Shown here piece by piece: positions 14,229 through 25,285 of a stretch of 42,632 nucleotides of DNA; position 1 is the first letter of the stretch, and every line of letters starts with the position of its first letter. Origin of the DNA: Planctomyces sp. GTDB lineage: Bacteria > Planctomycetota > Planctomycetia > Planctomycetales > Planctomycetaceae. The DNA lies in the NCBI GenBank assembly GCA_005778225.1, contig SXPC01000226.1, positions 1 through 42,632 of the forward strand, written 5' to 3'. Below the pieces are notes generated by a model. The model saw nothing but the letters and a program-made list of their open reading frames with translations. It was not told the origin of the DNA and searched no databases. A program made the translations under genes and the position numbers.

Positions 14229-15401
14229 GTGCCAGAACCGCCCATCCCACGCGACATTTGCTTCCTCGGACCTTTCCGACATCACGTCGAACGGGTGCTC
14301 GAAGGTGTTCAGGAAGTCATTAAGCAGTTCCCACATCTGCGTCTGCGGGATCTACGCACCTCCGACACGTCGGTCATCTGTGCAGAGCCCTTACCCCCCT
14401 GGTCTCCCCAGACAGCACTGGGCGCCATCGTTTTCCTCGGCGGAAAAGAACTGACCCATTGGCTGCTGTCCGGCGGCGTGCCTGTCGTCTCGGTTTCTGC
14501 TGAATTCGATCCAGAGATCATTCCATCGGTTCACTTGGACTCATTCTCATTTGTTGATATCCAGCTGGCGCACCTGATGGAAGTGGGGCTGGCCCGTGTC
14601 GTGTTTATCTGCGACAGCGTGATCGGGCATGCAGAAGAACGCATCGCCCTCATGCAGGAAGACGGACGCCAGATGAACATGGACGTCCAGACATTCCGAC
14701 TTCCCTTCGACTGCGAACACGAAGCCGAGGAGAGAATTCCCGAGAACACCGCCGGCCTGCGCAAGATGCTTCACGAGATCCCCAAGCCAGCGGGCATCAT
14801 CGCCAAGACAGATCGGGCGGGCGCGCTCGTTTCTCGTGTCTGCCTCGAAGAAGGCATTTCCGTTCCCGATGAAATCGCGATCACCGCTCCCGCTGATGGT
14901 CGCCTGGGACGTTTCTGCGACCCGCCGCTCACGTCGCTGGAATTCCCCAGCGTCGACATCGGTCGACAAGCCATGCTGATGCTCGATTCACTGATCAAAG
15001 GCAAGCCACTTCATAAACGCGAAGTCGTTTTCCCGCCTACCTCGCTCGTCCGTCGTGGCTCGACCAGCCGCGTCTTTGAATGCGATCACGTCGTCCGACA
15101 GGCCATGGGGATCATCCGCCTGCGTGCCTGCGAAGGGCTGACGGTCAATGAGCTGGCCGATAATCTCGGCGTGAACCGTCGTCTGCTGATTCGTCGATTT
15201 GCCGACAGTCTTGGCTCGACCCCCAGTGACGAAATCAACAGCGTTCGTCTCTTGGTCGCCAAACAGCTGCTTGGGATTTCCATGCTTCCGATAACGACAG
15301 TGGCTCGTGAAACAGGGTTTCAACGAGCCACTGATTTCGCCACATTTTTCAAACGTCACACGAACCTCACTCCACGTGAGTTTCGCCATGAGCAGGCTTG
15401 A
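14229..15401 (+). CDS. XylR-type transcriptional regulator (LacI-like sensor + AraC DNA-binding domain)
   Basis: This 390-residue regulator joins a periplasmic-binding-protein-like sensor (residues about 10-285) to a C-terminal AraC HTH domain (about 290-390). The sensor has family landmarks such as GVPVVSVSAEFD, IPSVHLDSFSFVDIQLAHLM, GIIAKTDRAGALVSRVCLEE and PPLTSLEFPSVDIGRQAMLM. The HTH region contains EGLTVNELADNLGVNRRLLI and the second helix set ITTVARETGFQRATDFATFF. By family it should sense a sugar or sugar-like ligand and activate nearby genes. The start is GTG 14229 with no strong Shine-Dalgarno. It is divergent from the DUF1559 operon. The ligand is unknown. Confidence 0.9.
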   Translation: MPEPPIPRDICFLGPFRHHVERVLEGVQEVIKQFPHLRLRDLRTSDTSVICAEPLPPWSPQTALGAIVFLGGKELTHWLLSGGVPVVSVSAEFDPEIIPSVHLDSFSFVDIQLAHLMEVGLARVVFICDSVIGHAEERIALMQEDGRQMNMDVQTFRLPFDCEHEAEERIPENTAGLRKMLHEIPKPAGIIAKTDRAGALVSRVCLEEGISVPDEIAITAPADGRLGRFCDPPLTSLEFPSVDIGRQAMLMLDSLIKGKPLHKREVVFPPTSLVRRGSTSRVFECDHVVRQAMGIIRLRACEGLTVNELADNLGVNRRLLIRRFADSLGSTPSDEINSVRLLVAKQLLGISMLPITTVARETGFQRATDFATFFKRHTNLTPREFRHEQA

Positions 15402-15407
15402 AAAGAA

Positions 15408-16748
15408 CTAATTCTTCTGTAACCGCTTCGTGTGATACGCGATCCACGCATCGTTGAGTTCCTGCTCAGTGAGTCCAGTCGTTTCCTTCCAGAAGTCACT
15501 CGAATATTTGCCCTGTCGAACCGAAGCATTCAGCTTCTTGACCAGATCTTTGTCATAAGTCCGTGAGGCCCAGTCGAGGAAGTTTCCTGTCACGCGGTAG
15601 CTGGCATCGTAGCGGGCGTTCGGCAGTGATCTGGCAGTGATTTCTGCGCCACGGGTTTGTGGTTCGTACAGGAACCAGCGAACGTAATCCGCGACCCCTT
15701 CCTGAACCCAGCCTGGCTTCGCATCGTCGCGTCGCACGTTCGGATACATCTGAGCGACGTGAACCAGTTCGTGGACAGCTGCTCCGAGTGCTTCCCCTTT
15801 GAGTTGACCGCGATACCACTCGATATTGAGCGCAATGTTGGGACCAGCTGCCCAGGCCGGCGTTCCACCCATGTCGTTCTGGAATCTCAACGTGACTTTC
15901 TTGATCGGATCAAAACCATCGGAATCAAGCATCTTGACGATCTTGGGATACCATTCAATCACGACCGGCTTGAGCTTTTCTTCTGACCAATCCTTGAGGT
16001 CAGGCGCCATCGTCGCATCAATCGTGAATTCATACTTGCCACCATCCGCGTCGAAGGTGACCAGGACGGGATCTGGTGTCTTGATACGCTCAACATCCTT
16101 GGCATCTGCGTCAATGACGTCGATCTCGCTGAAGAATGTCTCGCCGAATGGACTGTTAGCATCGGCTTTTGAAACGTCGAACAGCAGGTAACGATAGGTG
16201 CCCAGATTGGCTTTTGGATCTTCGATCAACGCTGCATGCTGTCCACCGCGAGGACCGCGATTACGCCGCGTATCGACATCAGCGACTTTGGTCCAGCCGT
16301 TGTCTGCCGGCGATTGACCAGCTTCGAGGGATGACATCGCGGTGGTGTGACCTTCGCCTGCGCCGTACAGCGTGTAGACCTGAGGAGCGCGTTCATCTGG
16401 ATGCCATGAATAGCTGGCAACATTCTTGACGTTCGTTGCTTTGCCCAGATCAATGACGAAGCGCCTTGCCTCACCTCCAGCGAAAAAGAAATTCGCGCCG
16501 GGATCGTCATCGCCACTTGGAATCTCACCATCGACAAGAGCTTTCACGCCTGCACCGTTGCCATCGTCTTCGCCAGCGACAATGGAGATTTTCGCCGTTG
16601 AAGCAGCGTCATTGATCGCAGGCAGCGGGATCTGTCGAAACTGAAACAGACTGCCTCGGCCACGTTCGGTTGTGACCTTCGCTTCTGCCAGACAGACAGC
16701 CTGCTGACACAACATCAGCAAGCCAGCAAAGCAAATAATTTTCTTCAT
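15408..16748 (-). CDS. Secreted BSP-family (basic secretory protein) putative metallopeptidase
   Basis: This is a 446-residue exported protein. A signal peptide (residues 1-22) is followed by a region of about 190 residues resembling a discoidin-like beta-sandwich (GEARRFVIDLGKATNVKNVA and LGTYRYLLFDVSK). The C-terminal BSP/Peptidase_MA-like domain (about 235-445) has the zinc motif HELVH at 326-330 and, downstream, WVQEGVADYVRWF, whose Glu could be the third ligand. The order and motif resemble plant and bacterial basic secretory proteins, for which protease activity is suspected but not well proven. It is convergent with the XylR-type regulator gene (6 bp apart). A carbohydrate-binding role for the N-terminal domain is an inference. 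Confidence 0.87.
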   Translation of the reverse strand: MKKIICFAGLLMLCQQAVCLAEAKVTTERGRGSLFQFRQIPLPAINDAASTAKISIVAGEDDGNGAGVKALVDGEIPSGDDDPGANFFFAGGEARRFVIDLGKATNVKNVASYSWHPDERAPQVYTLYGAGEGHTTAMSSLEAGQSPADNGWTKVADVDTRRNRGPRGGQHAALIEDPKANLGTYRYLLFDVSKADANSPFGETFFSEIDVIDADAKDVERIKTPDPVLVTFDADGGKYEFTIDATMAPDLKDWSEEKLKPVVIEWYPKIVKMLDSDGFDPIKKVTLRFQNDMGGTPAWAAGPNIALNIEWYRGQLKGEALGAAVHELVHVAQMYPNVRRDDAKPGWVQEGVADYVRWFLYEPQTRGAEITARSLPNARYDASYRVTGNFLDWASRTYDKDLVKKLNASVRQGKYSSDFWKETTGLTEQELNDAWIAYHTKRLQKN

Positions 16749-19047: not shown

Positions 19048-20133
19048 TTAGCCTCGGAACGGCTGTGGGCGCCCAAAGAAAAACCCCTGTGCCAGATCGA
19101 ATCCAAGATCCAGGCAGGTATCTGCTTCTGCTTTTGTTTCGATTCCCTCAGCCAAGCAGATTGTATTGAACTGCCTGGCAGCGGCAACGAGGGCAGCAAT
19201 CAGATTGAGGCGACTGAGACTGGCTTTGTCGATCTCGCGAATCAGCTTGATATCGAATTTCAGATAGTCAGGTGGCGTCTGAGTCAGTTCATCCAGACGA
19301 GCCTGCCCTGATCCAAAGTCATCGAAGGCAATCTTCATCTTCAGATTGTGGAGCTCCTGACAAAGCTCGTTCATTGATTCACAGTTGGTGATCGCTGCTT
19401 CGTGAATCTCAATTGTGATTTTGAGTTCCGGAGCCAGACGCCTCAGTTCCGTCAACGAATCTAGCAGCCGAACATGGTCGACTTCTTTCGGATGGGTGTT
19501 CAGAAAGAGCTGTCCCGGAGAATGCATCTTCAGAGCAGTCAGCGTTCCGCACTTACGAAGAATCTCGCTGAGTGTGCACTCCATATCAAGCTTGGCGGCC
19601 GCAGAAAACATCGTGCCAGGATTCTCAAGGCCACTGACCGTACTGCGAGCCAGCATCTCGAATCCATAATTGACACCCGTCTTCAGCCAGACAATCGGCT
19701 GAAAGTGAGGCACGATCCCATCGTCGTTGAGTAGACGATCGAACTGCATCATCGACATGCTCCATGGAAATGCACCTTCGACCTGGGTGTGACATTGTGG
19801 CGTTTCTTCAACGAGTTCTTTCACCCGGAAGACCGAGTTCGCAAACTGGACGATGTCATTGAAACTCAGCCGACAAACTTCGATACGATTTCCGTTGACG
19901 AACGTCCCGTTTCGCGATCCCAGATCGCGCACCACATAGCCATTGTCGGCTGGTTCCAGAACAGCATGACGTGAAGAGACTGCGCCCGATGAAAGACAAA
20001 GCAATGACGTCGGCGAACGACCAACCGAAATGGTCTGCCCATTCAACTTCATCATGATCGTCGGCGTATCGTCATCGCGACATTCCACGAGTTGCAGTGG
20101 TTTTGTAGAGGATTTGGAGGGTGTCCAGATCAT
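19048..20133 (-). CDS. FHA-EAL protein, predicted c-di-GMP phosphodiesterase
   Basis: This is a 361-residue protein. An FHA domain (about residues 25-107) has ISVGRSP, SSRHA and LGSRNGTFVNG, the phosphothreonine-binding set. A complete EAL domain (about 130-358) follows. The metal and catalytic residues look intact: Glu159 in EMLAR, Asn212, Glu242 in IEIHE, Asp271/Asp272 in FDDFGSG, Lys292, Glu329 and Glu332 in AEGIET, and Gln349 in AQGFFFGRP. It should therefore hydrolyse c-di-GMP in the cytoplasm. Its ATG overlaps the stop of the upstream kinase gene in ATGA (20130-20133), so the two are translationally coupled. The likely logic is that the kinase phosphorylates itself or a partner and the FHA domain docks there, tying c-di-GMP breakdown to the kinase signal. 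Confidence 0.9.
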   Translation of the reverse strand: MIWTPSKSSTKPLQLVECRDDDTPTIMMKLNGQTISVGRSPTSLLCLSSGAVSSRHAVLEPADNGYVVRDLGSRNGTFVNGNRIEVCRLSFNDIVQFANSVFRVKELVEETPQCHTQVEGAFPWSMSMMQFDRLLNDDGIVPHFQPIVWLKTGVNYGFEMLARSTVSGLENPGTMFSAAAKLDMECTLSEILRKCGTLTALKMHSPGQLFLNTHPKEVDHVRLLDSLTELRRLAPELKITIEIHEAAITNCESMNELCQELHNLKMKIAFDDFGSGQARLDELTQTPPDYLKFDIKLIREIDKASLSRLNLIAALVAAARQFNTICLAEGIETKAEADTCLDLGFDLAQGFFFGRPQPFRG

Positions 20134-23100
20134 GGTGAGGTTTTCTCAATAATGAAATGCTGGATAAGCTCGGTCTTCTGGTCACCGACTTTCATCGATG
20201 CGAGCTCGCCTTTGATGTTTTGTTGGGCCAGCCAACTGGAAACGAGCGGATCGCGGTACACCGCTTCCGTGAGGACAATTCCTCTGGCCTGGTCTGGCAG
20301 TCTGGTCACAAGTCGTGCGGCTCCGCCGAAATAGTCGAGTCGACCATTCACCGTCGTCACGACGGCAGGTCCTGAGTGAACGCCGATTCTTAGTGACAGA
20401 TGTGCTGTCGAATCATCATCACGAAGTCGCTGTGGCAACTTAAATGACGTTCGTACGGCGTGGCCTGATTCCTGAAACGCAGCCAACAATCCTTCGCCAA
20501 CCGACTTGATCACACATCCGCCATGAGTGCGGATCTCGTCTTCCATCGCTCGCAACGCGTATTGAATCTGACGACAGGCAACCGTGTCACCGAGACGCTC
20601 ATAGAGTGACTCAGAGTCAGCGATGACAGCCATCAACAACGTCACCTGTTCTGTCGAGACGAGTTGCTCTGGTCGCAACACTTCGTCCGGAAACAAACGA
20701 CGGAAACTGTCATAGGCAGTCGCACGAGCGGCCGTGATGACATCATGACGAGGAATCGTTCGCTCGACGCGAATAATGCGATCATGCTCCATCGAATTGC
20801 GAATCTGCAGAACCTGTTTACCGGCTCGTAAAACCGGAGTATGCCGAGGATCAATTTTCGCAGCGAACTCGAGTTCCGCATGCGAGGGAGCGACCCCGTT
20901 GTTGACGTGCAATGAAATCGAATACGGCAGATGCTGTCCACGGACAAGGTATTCTCCCGGCCCAAGTTGCAACTCAAGCTCGACGCATTCCCCGCTTCGA
21001 ACTTTCATCTGAGAAACAACGTGCGGTGCATGCCAAGGGCCACCAATGCAATACTTCCCCGGCGTTGCTTCACGCAGTTCCGGATGAATCTGAAAGATCA
21101 TCTCAATTGAGTTGGCCAAGTCCGATTTGAAATCGAGGTGACAGGCTTCGCAGTGAGTATGGCTTTCCAGTTCCTTCAACGATTGACGAGTATCCGCAGC
21201 AACACGACACGTCGGACACAAAATGTCCCACTGCAGCGTCAGCAGCCCTGCTTCCGCCGCATAAAGACACAGGTCGAGTGTCTCTTCTTCACTGGCGTGT
21301 AATTTGGAAGCCAGCGGCACCGGACGGATTTTCTGAAGCTCCTGAATCGGACTCTTCTGCAGCCATTCACCGAAAGCATCAATCAGACGAGAAGAGACCG
21401 GTTGCAGACGCAACTTCTCCAGACGCTGGACGACACGCTTCTGCTGCATCGACTGCAACTTGCCGCCATCTTCAAACGGATCGCAGCCAGTTACATTTTG
21501 TTTCTGCTGACGAATCGACTGATCAATCCGTCGATAGACACGCTCGATGATCCTGGCTGACTTGATCTTCACTTCAAAACGAGCCAGCCACTTCCCAAAT
21601 GTATTGGCCGGATCGATCCGAACCTTATGGTGCAACCGCGTTCCGCCATCTTCACGACGTTCCAGCTCGACGATACTGGTAAACCATTTGAACGGCCCCT
21701 TCTCAAAGGTCCGCAGAACGCTCATGCGTTTGCCTTCGACCCATTCAAACGGATGCTCTTCCCAGGAAATGGAAACGCCACCCATCTTGAAGGAACCAAA
21801 GCGACGCGTCCCGTTCACGTCATCGTAGGTTGTCTTGAAATTGACCGCAGGAATTCCGACAGCGCGATTGAATCGCTCTGTGTTCGAGACAAAAGGCCAT
21901 AGCTCTTCCGGTGTCGAATCAAGTTCCCAGACAAAGTCGCAGCGGAACAACTTGGCAGGATCGTACGTCGGCAGAATCGGATGCAATTCGATATCCGACA
22001 CGCCCCCGGTAAGAAGCCGCTCAATGTCTTTCAACAGGTGAGCAGCATCGGCATAGCGATCTTCCGGCTTCTTCGCGAGTGCCTTCGTAATGATCTCATC
22101 AACGGCAGTGGTGACTTTGGGATTCAGCTTGGACGGCAGCGGAATCGCATCGAAGCAGTGCATCGATGCCAGCCGCATCGCGTCAGGCGCGAAGTAAGGC
22201 ACCTTGCCAGTCAGCAGTTCAAACAGAGTCGCACCCAGAGCATACACATCACTCTGAGAAGTGATGTCCCCCTGCCCTTTAAACTGCTCAGGCGACATAT
22301 ACAACGGCGTTCCGACAAGCGAATAGGCTTGCGTCATCGCCATCGATTCACTCTGGTCAATGAATCTCGCGATCCCGAAATCCGACAGCTTGACTCGATC
22401 ATCACCTTCAATCTGACTGCCACGCCACGAGGTCGGATCGCCTTCGATCTCGATCAGAATGTTTTCCGGCTTGATGTCACGATGGACCATCCCCATCTCA
22501 TGAGCATCTCGCAGCGCGCGACAGACATCCGCAATGATCCCCAACGCCTGTCTCTCATCCAGCGAAATCGTTTGATTGAGAACTTTCTTGAGATCAATCC
22601 CCGAAACAAATTCGAGTACCAGATAGTGAGAGTTGTTGTGCAGCCCGACATCAATCAGGTTCGTGATATGGGGATTCTTGATCGAAGACAGCAGTCGGGC
22701 TTCCTTTTGAAAGCGTCGAATCGACTGCGTATTATTCATGCTCCGCTGCGAGAGGACTTTGATCGCAACGAGTTTCCCCGAGTCGCAATTCTTCGCCTTG
22801 AAGACGGCACCCATGCCCCCTTCGCCCAGCTTGCGGATCACTTCATAGTTGCCAAGTCGTGTTCCTGCACCGACGACATCCCCGCTTTGCGATTGCTGCG
22901 CGGGGGAACTGCCATCGATCGTCGCCCCATCGAAAGTCCCCGATGACGCAAGAGGCAATGGTGTGACCAGAGTGAAGGAATCCGACGACTGAAATTCACC
23001 TGCATGATTGACTTCAGACGTTAGGCCGGAACTCGTCGGGTGATTTATTCGCGTTTCACGTACGACGTCTTTAAAATCTTCAATGATCGGCTGCTCGCGA

Positions 23101-23807
23101 AGCTCTTGGCTTTGAGAACGTGAAATCAGTTTTGACCATTTGAGCTTGAGCAGTTTGGATAAGCCCATCAGATCGTCATGAAACTGAGTCCGTGACAACA
23201 GTCGTTCGATAACCTGACCAAGTCCTCGCAGGTCGTCTATTCGATGGGAAGCAGTCGATGGCTTCAGTCCAAAGTCGAGGTTCAGCAGATCGAGTTTGAG
23301 CTCCCCTTCTGCATCCACCATCACGGTGGTCGATGTCACAGATCCGTGACTCAACCCGCAGCGCTGCGCCTCGGCGATGAGTTCAACGAGTGTCTGACAA
23401 TGATTTCGAAACGCCCGTTCGCTCAGATGTTCGATACTGTCCAGATACTGGTCCAGCGTCAATTCCGGCCACGAGAGATAAACGACATACGCGCTGCCGT
23501 CTCTGAATTCACAATCGTCGATCGCCAGCAGGCCTTTCGACGTGATTCGTCGAATCTGCTCGACTCGCTTTTGCACAGACGCCAGCTCAGTCGATTTCTG
23601 ATTGATCCGGCAGTGAATGACCGATTCACCCGAGTTCGCACAATACGCCAGATACGCAACGCCGTCTTGACCGCTGGACAACTGACGTTTGAGTTCATAG
23701 CTCCGTTTGGATTCCACGTCCGTTGCTCCCCTTTGTCGCAAACGTGCGCCCAGAGCATGCGCATGCGATGCTTCTGGTGCAATCACGATCAAGTCGGTAT
23801 ATGACAT
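20130..23807 (-). CDS. Multidomain Ser/Thr protein kinase with SRPBCC, DUF5939-like and degenerate class III cyclase domains
   Basis: This is a 1,225-residue signalling protein. Residues about 37-210 resemble a decayed kinase (HGSV and LDFGL in place of HRD and DFG, no Gly-loop). Residues about 318-600 are a full Hanks kinase: GEGGMGAVFK, AIKVL (Lys350), HRDIKPEN (Asp444) and SDFGIA (Asp476). About 618-765 is an SRPBCC/START-like domain (VWELDSTPEELWPFVSN). About 780-1045 resembles DUF5939 and holds a CPTC/CEAC zinc-ribbon pair. About 1052-1222 is a class III nucleotide cyclase fold (YERLGD, RTHGGCVIKSVGEGLLAAF, LDYFGGAARLVTRL). Both metal aspartates (one Val, one Glu) and the transition-state Asn (Arg) are replaced, so it is probably a sensor rather than an enzyme. 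ATG 23807 is chosen over TTG 23816. It overlaps the FHA-EAL gene by four bases. Confidence 0.9.
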   Translation of the reverse strand: MSYTDLIVIAPEASHAHALGARLRQRGATDVESKRSYELKRQLSSGQDGVAYLAYCANSGESVIHCRINQKSTELASVQKRVEQIRRITSKGLLAIDDCEFRDGSAYVVYLSWPELTLDQYLDSIEHLSERAFRNHCQTLVELIAEAQRCGLSHGSVTSTTVMVDAEGELKLDLLNLDFGLKPSTASHRIDDLRGLGQVIERLLSRTQFHDDLMGLSKLLKLKWSKLISRSQSQELREQPIIEDFKDVVRETRINHPTSSGLTSEVNHAGEFQSSDSFTLVTPLPLASSGTFDGATIDGSSPAQQSQSGDVVGAGTRLGNYEVIRKLGEGGMGAVFKAKNCDSGKLVAIKVLSQRSMNNTQSIRRFQKEARLLSSIKNPHITNLIDVGLHNNSHYLVLEFVSGIDLKKVLNQTISLDERQALGIIADVCRALRDAHEMGMVHRDIKPENILIEIEGDPTSWRGSQIEGDDRVKLSDFGIARFIDQSESMAMTQAYSLVGTPLYMSPEQFKGQGDITSQSDVYALGATLFELLTGKVPYFAPDAMRLASMHCFDAIPLPSKLNPKVTTAVDEIITKALAKKPEDRYADAAHLLKDIERLLTGGVSDIELHPILPTYDPAKLFRCDFVWELDSTPEELWPFVSNTERFNRAVGIPAVNFKTTYDDVNGTRRFGSFKMGGVSISWEEHPFEWVEGKRMSVLRTFEKGPFKWFTSIVELERREDGGTRLHHKVRIDPANTFGKWLARFEVKIKSARIIERVYRRIDQSIRQQKQNVTGCDPFEDGGKLQSMQQKRVVQRLEKLRLQPVSSRLIDAFGEWLQKSPIQELQKIRPVPLASKLHASEEETLDLCLYAAEAGLLTLQWDILCPTCRVAADTRQSLKELESHTHCEACHLDFKSDLANSIEMIFQIHPELREATPGKYCIGGPWHAPHVVSQMKVRSGECVELELQLGPGEYLVRGQHLPYSISLHVNNGVAPSHAELEFAAKIDPRHTPVLRAGKQVLQIRNSMEHDRIIRVERTIPRHDVITAARATAYDSFRRLFPDEVLRPEQLVSTEQVTLLMAVIADSESLYERLGDTVACRQIQYALRAMEDEIRTHGGCVIKSVGEGLLAAFQESGHAVRTSFKLPQRLRDDDSTAHLSLRIGVHSGPAVVTTVNGRLDYFGGAARLVTRLPDQARGIVLTEAVYRDPLVSSWLAQQNIKGELASMKVGDQKTELIQHFIIEKTSP

Positions 23808-24061
23808 GATATCCAAATGTTAACAGGGTCAGACGAAGATAACGAACGCGCTGAATCTTTCGCGTCGTTCTATTCAATCTGTGTTAACCAGTAACGGCTG
23901 CACGATTTTGTGGTGACTTCACCTCACGTTTGGGGCGAATGCCTATCAAGAGATTCGCGTTATAACGATTTTGCAGATAACCTCGCAGGAATTTCATCTG
24001 AACGCACGTCACAAAATCGCCTCAGATTTGACGCACAGTTGAGCAGTCACGGTTCACGACA

Positions 24062-25072
24062 TTACAGGAATGAGGCATCGATCGACATCTGTGTCGGCGA
24101 AGCCACCGGAAGAACAGGAGCAAACCGATTCCGACGATTCTTGTAGCCACCGCCCCAGGGATACCATTGGAAACCCACAAACGCATCGACCGTTCCCGTA
24201 TCACTCGGCAGGACCAGATTCGTTTCCCCGAAGAGCACCAAGTGATCATTGAGCGGCATCAGGATATCGGCTCCGATCACCGGCACGGCTCCCGTCGGCT
24301 CATGATACCCTGTCACGGCGTTCGATTCGCCGTGACCATCGACCCAACCCAGCCACACGGTCGTCTGAGCCGAACTCTCATAATAGTGACGCCAGAAGGC
24401 CGTGTACTGGTTCATCGCATCAAGCCGCACACGTGATGCCAGGAAGTCCCCCTCATCGTCTTTTCCCGACAGCGTCAACGTCACACCGACTTCGTTACTG
24501 TCATTAAGGAGATACTGACCACGAAGACGCCATTGGCTGAGTCGGAACTGGTCGTAGCTGTCCTGGTATAGAGAGTCGTAAACCGCACCCCAGCTGACTC
24601 CATTTTCCAGACGTTGATAGACCCCGACTGTCGTATAACTCTGAAACCGCGTGTTGGTCTCGCCAACGATTTCATAGACACGGACCGCGTTCCCTGTCCC
24701 CAGCAACGCAGAGCCAAACTGGGCACCCAGCCCATATTCTTCCCAGACGGGAATCCCGATATTCGAGCTGAAATGCCCGCCAATATTCGCATTGACCCCC
24801 AGATCCTGAGGCTGCTTCGATCCATCCACGCCAGCGAAGAACGTCAGGTTCTCCAGCCAGGGATTCGCGCACTCGGGCACGCAATTGTCTTTGAATGCGT
24901 CCGAGCAACCAGTCGATGGATTCTGATCGCTCTGGCAGGCTGAGGCCGAATAGCTCGTCAGGCCGCCAATCGAATGACCTGAATTAGCCATAAGATTTTC
25001 AGACGCGCGGACAATGCCCGCCTCAAGACAACACCAGCAGGCAATAATAAACAGTCCGGAAAATCGCGTCAT
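24062..25072 (-). CDS. DUF6666-like exported planctomycete protein
   Basis: This is a 336-residue protein with a signal peptide (MTRFSGLFIIACWCCLEAG). The first mature part is Cys-rich (four Cys in about 25 residues: ACQSDQ, STGCSD, DNCVPECANP). The rest is a series of amphipathic beta-like segments (LTFFAGVDGSKQPQDLGVNA, EYGLGAQFGSALLG, SYTTVGVYQRLENGVSWGAV, RLSQWRLRGQYLL) ending near FVGFQWYPWGGGYKNR, consistent with an outer-membrane beta-barrel. It resembles the planctomycete DUF6666 family from memory. ATG 25072 is chosen because it places the signal peptide at the N-terminus. It is a single gene, same strand as the kinase gene but 254 bp upstream. Confidence 0.75.
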   Translation of the reverse strand: MTRFSGLFIIACWCCLEAGIVRASENLMANSGHSIGGLTSYSASACQSDQNPSTGCSDAFKDNCVPECANPWLENLTFFAGVDGSKQPQDLGVNANIGGHFSSNIGIPVWEEYGLGAQFGSALLGTGNAVRVYEIVGETNTRFQSYTTVGVYQRLENGVSWGAVYDSLYQDSYDQFRLSQWRLRGQYLLNDSNEVGVTLTLSGKDDEGDFLASRVRLDAMNQYTAFWRHYYESSAQTTVWLGWVDGHGESNAVTGYHEPTGAVPVIGADILMPLNDHLVLFGETNLVLPSDTGTVDAFVGFQWYPWGGGYKNRRNRFAPVLPVASPTQMSIDASFL

Positions 25073-25285
25073 GGAAGGACCCTGAATGAAGTCTGTAATC
25101 AACGAATGAAACATCACCGTTAAAGCTGTTAAGATCCGCATATTCGGTATCGACGTCAGAACCGGCAAAACTTGTCCGGCTTGACGACGTCGACCACAGG
25201 TTTACCCCTATCATTCGTAAAACCGTTACTACCTGAAAATTCTCCTCAACCTGCCCACTTTGACATCCCACCGGAAAGCCATCCC

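Follow-up and report, generated by a model that had tools for sequence, protein, structure and literature searches.

A planctomycete kinase-pseudocyclase gene paired with an FHA-EAL gene: a conserved locus that may relay threonine phosphorylation to c-di-GMP

Does a kinase gene that runs into a gene for an FHA domain fused to an EAL domain link threonine phosphorylation to c-di-GMP? The question is raised by a window of 42,632 nucleotides (the whole stretch of DNA that was analysed), in which the initial annotation described these two genes as a self-contained circuit. That interpretation is, as a whole, partly supported. The locus is real, conserved and larger than first reported; it varies two established themes (kinase/FHA and FHA/c-di-GMP) and does not found a new category of system. 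We give a probability of about 0.6 to the reading that it forms a phosphothreonine to c-di-GMP relay. The setting is a 5.1-Mb genome (305 contigs, 87% complete) with 39 kinase-domain ORFs. Its gene content and kinase number point to a planctomycete (compare PMC11032199). A c-di-GMP system is present, since four GGDEF and two EAL matches are returned, and a search for a PilZ receptor found none in this 87%-complete genome, which counts against the relay. The first gene of the pair and its parts are as follows.

20130-23807, minus strand: pseudokinase-kinase-SRPBCC-DUF5939-pseudocyclase gene, 1,225 aa (ORF; Pfam domains; homologues in 66/398 class genomes)
23262-23699, minus strand: N-terminal degenerate kinase domain, a partial match (PF00069, E 0.0057 in the window protein)
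22035-22847, minus strand: intact Ser/Thr kinase domain (PF00069, 1.6e-57; catalytic motifs kept in about 66/67)
21525-21962, minus strand: SRPBCC-like domain, approximate limits (PF10604 matches at the aligned position in homologues L146, L186, L249 and L252)
21069-21416, minus strand: DUF5939 domain (PF19363, 7e-16)
21141-21218, minus strand: CxxC...CxxC zinc-ribbon-like motif within DUF5939, its four Cys invariant
20286-20657, minus strand: degenerate class III nucleotide cyclase domain, or pseudocyclase (Guanylate_cyc PF00211, 2e-4, below its cut-off)
20130-20133, minus strand: ATGA stop/start overlap of the kinase and FHA-EAL genes (sequence; a -4 overlap is also found in L181 and L188)

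The kinase ORF starts with an ATG, a TTG lying 9 nt earlier at 23816. All the motifs of a Hanks-type Ser/Thr kinase are present (G-loop, VAIK Lys, HRD...N, DFG, APE-type), in agreement with the initial description of the kinase as active-looking. The activation loop carries Thr495 and Thr503 (numbered from the TTG at 23816); the Thr of the LTQT-like motif is invariant in the 16 paired kinases described below, and the GTP Thr is also present. The degenerate N-terminal kinase domain, absent from the initial annotation, is better matched in homologues (PF00069, 8e-16, 2e-11 and 3e-9). The SRPBCC-like assignment holds only by way of the homologues: Pfam returns no such match in the window protein itself, and the PF10604 scores of the homologues stay under the 27.4 cut-off except for L249 (28.7) and L252 (28.0). 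In contrast, DUF5939 is firmly placed, with 58.6 bits against a gathering cut-off of 22.5, and the four cysteines of its ribbon, a second feature that had escaped notice, are invariant across 48 aligned sequences. The C-terminal domain possesses the class III cyclase fold, as the family profile matches the Ma1120 cyclase (5e-18), but its site is degenerate: both metal-binding Asp and the transition-state Asn are replaced (D1 by V, D2 by E, N by R). This rules out an active class III cyclase and agrees with the earlier label of pseudo-cyclase. The TOMM kinase/cyclase fusion family (TIGR03903) also joins a Ser/Thr kinase to further domains under the name kinase/cyclase; the window protein matches its kinase part only, and membership is rejected (122 bits against a curated cut-off of 705.75). 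The kinase module has no relative among viral contigs. AlphaFold models of the C-terminal half of the kinase protein, made without alignments, and of the DUF6666 protein introduced below, made from the single sequence, reached a pLDDT of 34-35 and were discarded.

The second gene lies on the same strand and comprises the following features.

19048-20133, minus strand: FHA-EAL gene, 361 aa (ORF; PF00498, 4e-16; PF00563, 1.5e-39; 16 syntenic loci)
19843-20031, minus strand: FHA domain, phosphothreonine pocket G38, R39, S53, H56, N75 and G76 intact (Pfam)
19786-19788, minus strand: codon of Thr116 in the FHA-EAL linker, a candidate phospho-acceptor or FHA ligand (invariance in the pairs)
19066-19743, minus strand: predicted EAL phosphodiesterase domain with the full catalytic set (PF00563)

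The junction of the two genes reads ...cctcaccATGAtc..., where stop and start overlap by 4 nt, as first described. Promoter and terminator scans gave nothing clearly over shuffled expectation. The nine EAL catalytic residues (E159, N212, E242, E245, D271, D272, K292, E329 and Q349) and the residues of the FHA pocket are all present and invariant in the 44 FHA-EALs aligned, which bears out the initial assignment of a phosphothreonine-type FHA domain fused to a catalytically complete EAL domain. Judged by its PF00563 match and catalytic set, the protein is a predicted c-di-GMP phosphodiesterase. Thr116 lies in an otherwise variable linker and is found in 16/16 paired FHA-EALs, while an aligned Thr occurs in 18 of 28 unpaired ones, both counts coming from an alignment without hand adjustment; most of the unpaired proteins without an aligned Thr116 carry a Thr a few positions off. 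This residue could instead be structural, for instance a helix cap. When genome contigs were scanned with FHA-EAL, the alignments to the relatives retrieved, a planctomycete one included, were for the most part confined to the EAL domain, and viral contigs gave single-domain matches only. We found no mention of FHA-EAL, DUF5939 or DUF6666 in the open-access literature, a coverage outside which most subscription papers fall. Elsewhere in the window, two ORFs have no relation to the kinase/FHA-EAL locus: 14229-15401 (plus strand) encodes a LacI-type sensor with an AraC helix-turn-helix, of the sugar-regulator type, and 15408-16748 (minus strand) a protein of the BSP peptidase family (PF04450).

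Whether the two genes belong together can be assessed from their relatives. With the C-terminal module as query, kinase homologues are found in 66 of the 398 sampled genomes of the class, and 71 kinase loci were examined, window included. In 16 of these 71 loci (window counted), spread over three families (f1, f5 and f11), the kinase gene is followed directly by FHA-EAL in the same orientation; the kinase is always first, and the gap ranges from about -14 to +57 nt once plausible starts are chosen. The exact ATGA overlap of -4 is restricted to three of the 16 pairs (the window, L181 and L188) and is rejected as a conserved hallmark. The expectation that the pair is conserved with its overlap is thus borne out for the pair but not for the overlap, and translational coupling, compatible with the overlap in the window, is not a conserved feature because so few pairs share it. 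In a tree of 67 kinase sequences, all 16 paired kinases fall inside one clade of 24 (SH-aLRT 99), and pairing takes 6 label changes against 14.7 in shuffles. The paired genes also cluster in the FHA-EAL tree, with subclades matching those of the kinase tree; a single origin of the paired FHA-EALs is not shown yet not rejected (p-AU 0.19). The conservation of the locus is far above chance.

The clade members without FHA-EAL downstream are L131, L133, L150, L155, L156 and L170, L170 having only 700 bases downstream; L138 ends at the contig end. When 20 clade genomes were searched, FHA-EAL was found somewhere in all except G044. Together with the tree placement, these exceptions make the pair an old unit of a single clade, lost in some of its members. 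The kinase family extends beyond the pair: an adjacent FHA-EAL is missing from 51 of the 67 homologues in the tree, and FHA-EAL also occurs without this kinase. The idea of a self-contained circuit is therefore not supported, and the kinase and the FHA-EAL are probably each able to work alone, since most kinase homologues lack an FHA-EAL next to them and many FHA-EALs lack this kinase; this counts against the relay. Downstream of the kinase in L183 (7504-7899), which also belongs to the clade, stands an FHA match alone, 61% identical to the FHA-EAL of L180 and with no EAL match beside it, which is either an FHA-only gene or a decayed copy. In L132, L157 and L161, the gene directly downstream of the kinase encodes instead a trypsin-like protein whose end is of the PEP-CTERM type.

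The fate of the cyclase domain sheds light on the kinase protein. Stand-alone SRPBCC-DUF5939-class III cyclases of the same phylum share the C-terminal module over about 600 residues but have no kinase, and their cyclase site is kept in 15/16, whereas D1, D2 and N are together kept in none of the 52 kinase-fused copies. Two proteins with other N-terminal extensions (L237 and L252) keep the site. The kinase fusion is a single change on the tree and the cyclase decay about one event, so that the correlation of kinase with dead cyclase is clean yet not statistically independent; the direction of change, cyclase first, is what these patterns suggest. We tentatively propose, as a scenario somewhat short of even odds, that a sensor-cyclase became a sensor-kinase by fusion and cyclase loss, one clade being wired via FHA-EAL to c-di-GMP and tied to DUF6666. 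It would then be a case of output replacement, the cyclase module being active when stand-alone and dead once kinase-fused. One protein (L244, 5259-8084) has the reverse order, with the kinase C-terminal to SRPBCC-DUF5939-pseudocyclase, and its cyclase site is also dead. Distant relatives of the DUF5939/cyclase region are found in rhizobial-plasmid proteins annotated as cyclases (partial match, 25-27% identity).

A third gene, also missing from the initial annotation and outside its reported coordinates, lies upstream of the kinase.

24062-25168, minus strand: DUF6666 gene, ORF of 368 aa (PF20371, 6e-25)

Its likely start is at about 25072, at a signal-peptide-like segment, and the product looks like an exported protein. 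It returned neither a PDB match nor a plasmid match, and the window genome has one copy of it. According to a profile built from the neighbour genes, 20 of the 24 clade members have DUF6666 next to the kinase, versus 4 of the 47 other kinase loci; it occurs in none of 20 unpaired FHA-EAL loci, nor in any of the 20 loci that encode related module proteins elsewhere in the phylum. Among the 16 pairs, 14 have it; L147 is without it and L148 ends at the contig end. Its placement varies: upstream of the kinase on the same strand or divergent, downstream on the same strand (L133, L155 and L156), or just past FHA-EAL on the opposite strand (L181 and L188); negative distances at L134, L146 and L167 are overlaps that come from choosing the first start codon. 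Chance is an unlikely cause of this linkage because the gene is single copy and its orientation varies.

DUF6666 is thus a more persistent neighbour of the kinase than FHA-EAL, and this feeds the strongest alternative to the relay: FHA-EAL would merely be co-transcribed, its FHA domain reading phosphothreonines of other kinases (it could bind one from another of the 39), and the true partner of the kinase would be DUF6666. The varying orientation of DUF6666 suggests selection for linkage, which extends to four loci outside the clade; in L133, L155 and L156, DUF6666 accompanies the kinase with no FHA-EAL nearby; and FHA-EALs elsewhere lie near a different kinase. However, the 16 pairs keep order, strand and narrow gap across three families, and the kinase and FHA-EAL trees share subclades. 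We regard this alternative as rather unlikely, though it is the one to be taken most seriously.

If the relay reading holds, the C-terminal half of the kinase protein (SRPBCC-like pocket, DUF5939 with its zinc ribbon, dead cyclase) would have been taken from a sensor-cyclase and would now serve as an input or regulatory module, the kinase having replaced the cyclase as output. The activated kinase would autophosphorylate its PknB-like activation loop (LTQT...GTP), phosphorylate Thr116 in the FHA-EAL linker, or both. The FHA domain may then dock on the kinase or fold onto its own phosphorylated linker, and either event could switch or relocate the EAL enzyme and change the c-di-GMP level. DUF6666 may act in the same functional unit, as an upstream signal partner or a downstream target. 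Domain architecture, intact active sites, synteny, co-inheritance across the clade and decay of the cyclase are observed, whereas phosphorylation, binding, the direction of regulation and the part played by DUF6666 are inferred.

Precedents exist for each half of this scheme. The FHA domain of Bdellovibrio DgcB, an FHA-GGDEF protein, is gated by a phosphothreonine tail, and a putative kinase-tail-FHA-GGDEF fusion occurs in Sorangium (PMC6733907). As proposed here, an FHA domain gates a c-di-GMP enzyme, a flanking phosphothreonine of the same protein is the proposed ligand, and a Ser/Thr kinase provides the input. The output differs, being GGDEF there and a predicted EAL phosphodiesterase, the hydrolytic counterpart, in the window; the conserved Thr of DgcB lies in an N-terminal tail and Thr116 in a linker; and in the window the kinase has a gene of its own, next to FHA-EAL, and is joined to a dead cyclase module. 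On the kinase side, the activation loop of PknQ is bound by MupFHA, an FHA protein of its gene neighbourhood (PMC4238996). This pair, as well as GarA and OdhI with their Pkn kinases, combines a kinase with an FHA partner through activation-loop docking or phospho-tail switching, but unlike the window FHA-EAL, these partners carry no c-di-GMP enzyme. If true, the relay would be a kinase-to-c-di-GMP circuit on the hydrolysis side, whereas the FHA control that we found described concerns synthesis (DgcB). It would also provide, in bacteria with many Ser/Thr kinases, a concrete substrate candidate, FHA-EAL, with Thr116 as candidate site.

A second alternative makes FHA-EAL a scaffold or c-di-GMP receptor, c-di-GMP bound by the EAL domain being read back to the kinase via FHA and hydrolysis being secondary. 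EAL proteins such as LapD do act as receptors, and the FHA remnant downstream of the kinase in L183 stands without a full EAL match. An FHA protein can moreover inhibit its partner kinase, as in PknQ/MupFHA (PMC4238996). The catalytic residues, invariant in all 44 FHA-EALs unlike in typical receptor-only EALs, leave this alternative improbable. Lastly, the genes might form a plain operon, neutral and without any signalling from the kinase to c-di-GMP. This accords with the absence of the pairing from most kinase homologues but is very improbable, as the FHA-EALs of the syntenic loci, 33-48% identical to that of the window, keep both phosphothreonine pocket and catalytic residues.

Returning to the FHA-EALs found away from this kinase, 9 of 20 unpaired neighbourhoods include, close by and in the same orientation, an ORF with a kinase domain, where about 0.1 kinases are expected per 14-kb stretch (39 kinases per 5.1 Mb). 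Pfam analysis of two of the nine reports a fusion of kinase and tubulin-like (Tubulin_2) domains, following a gene of ~450 aa, and the remaining neighbour kinases are ORFs similar in size and position. Given this excess, the FHA-EALs of this group tend to lie near Ser/Thr kinases of two kinds, which speaks for the relay. The Tubulin_2 arrangement, from the same bacterial family, resembles the window in that FHA-EAL is close to a Ser/Thr kinase; it differs in that FHA-EAL comes first and is separated by the ~450-aa gene from the kinase, which bears a tubulin-like domain. The succession of FHA-EAL, ~450-aa gene and large kinase ORF recurs in L206, L208, L209, L211, L212, L216, L218 and others, and the intervening gene displays a weak AAA_16 similarity in two loci.
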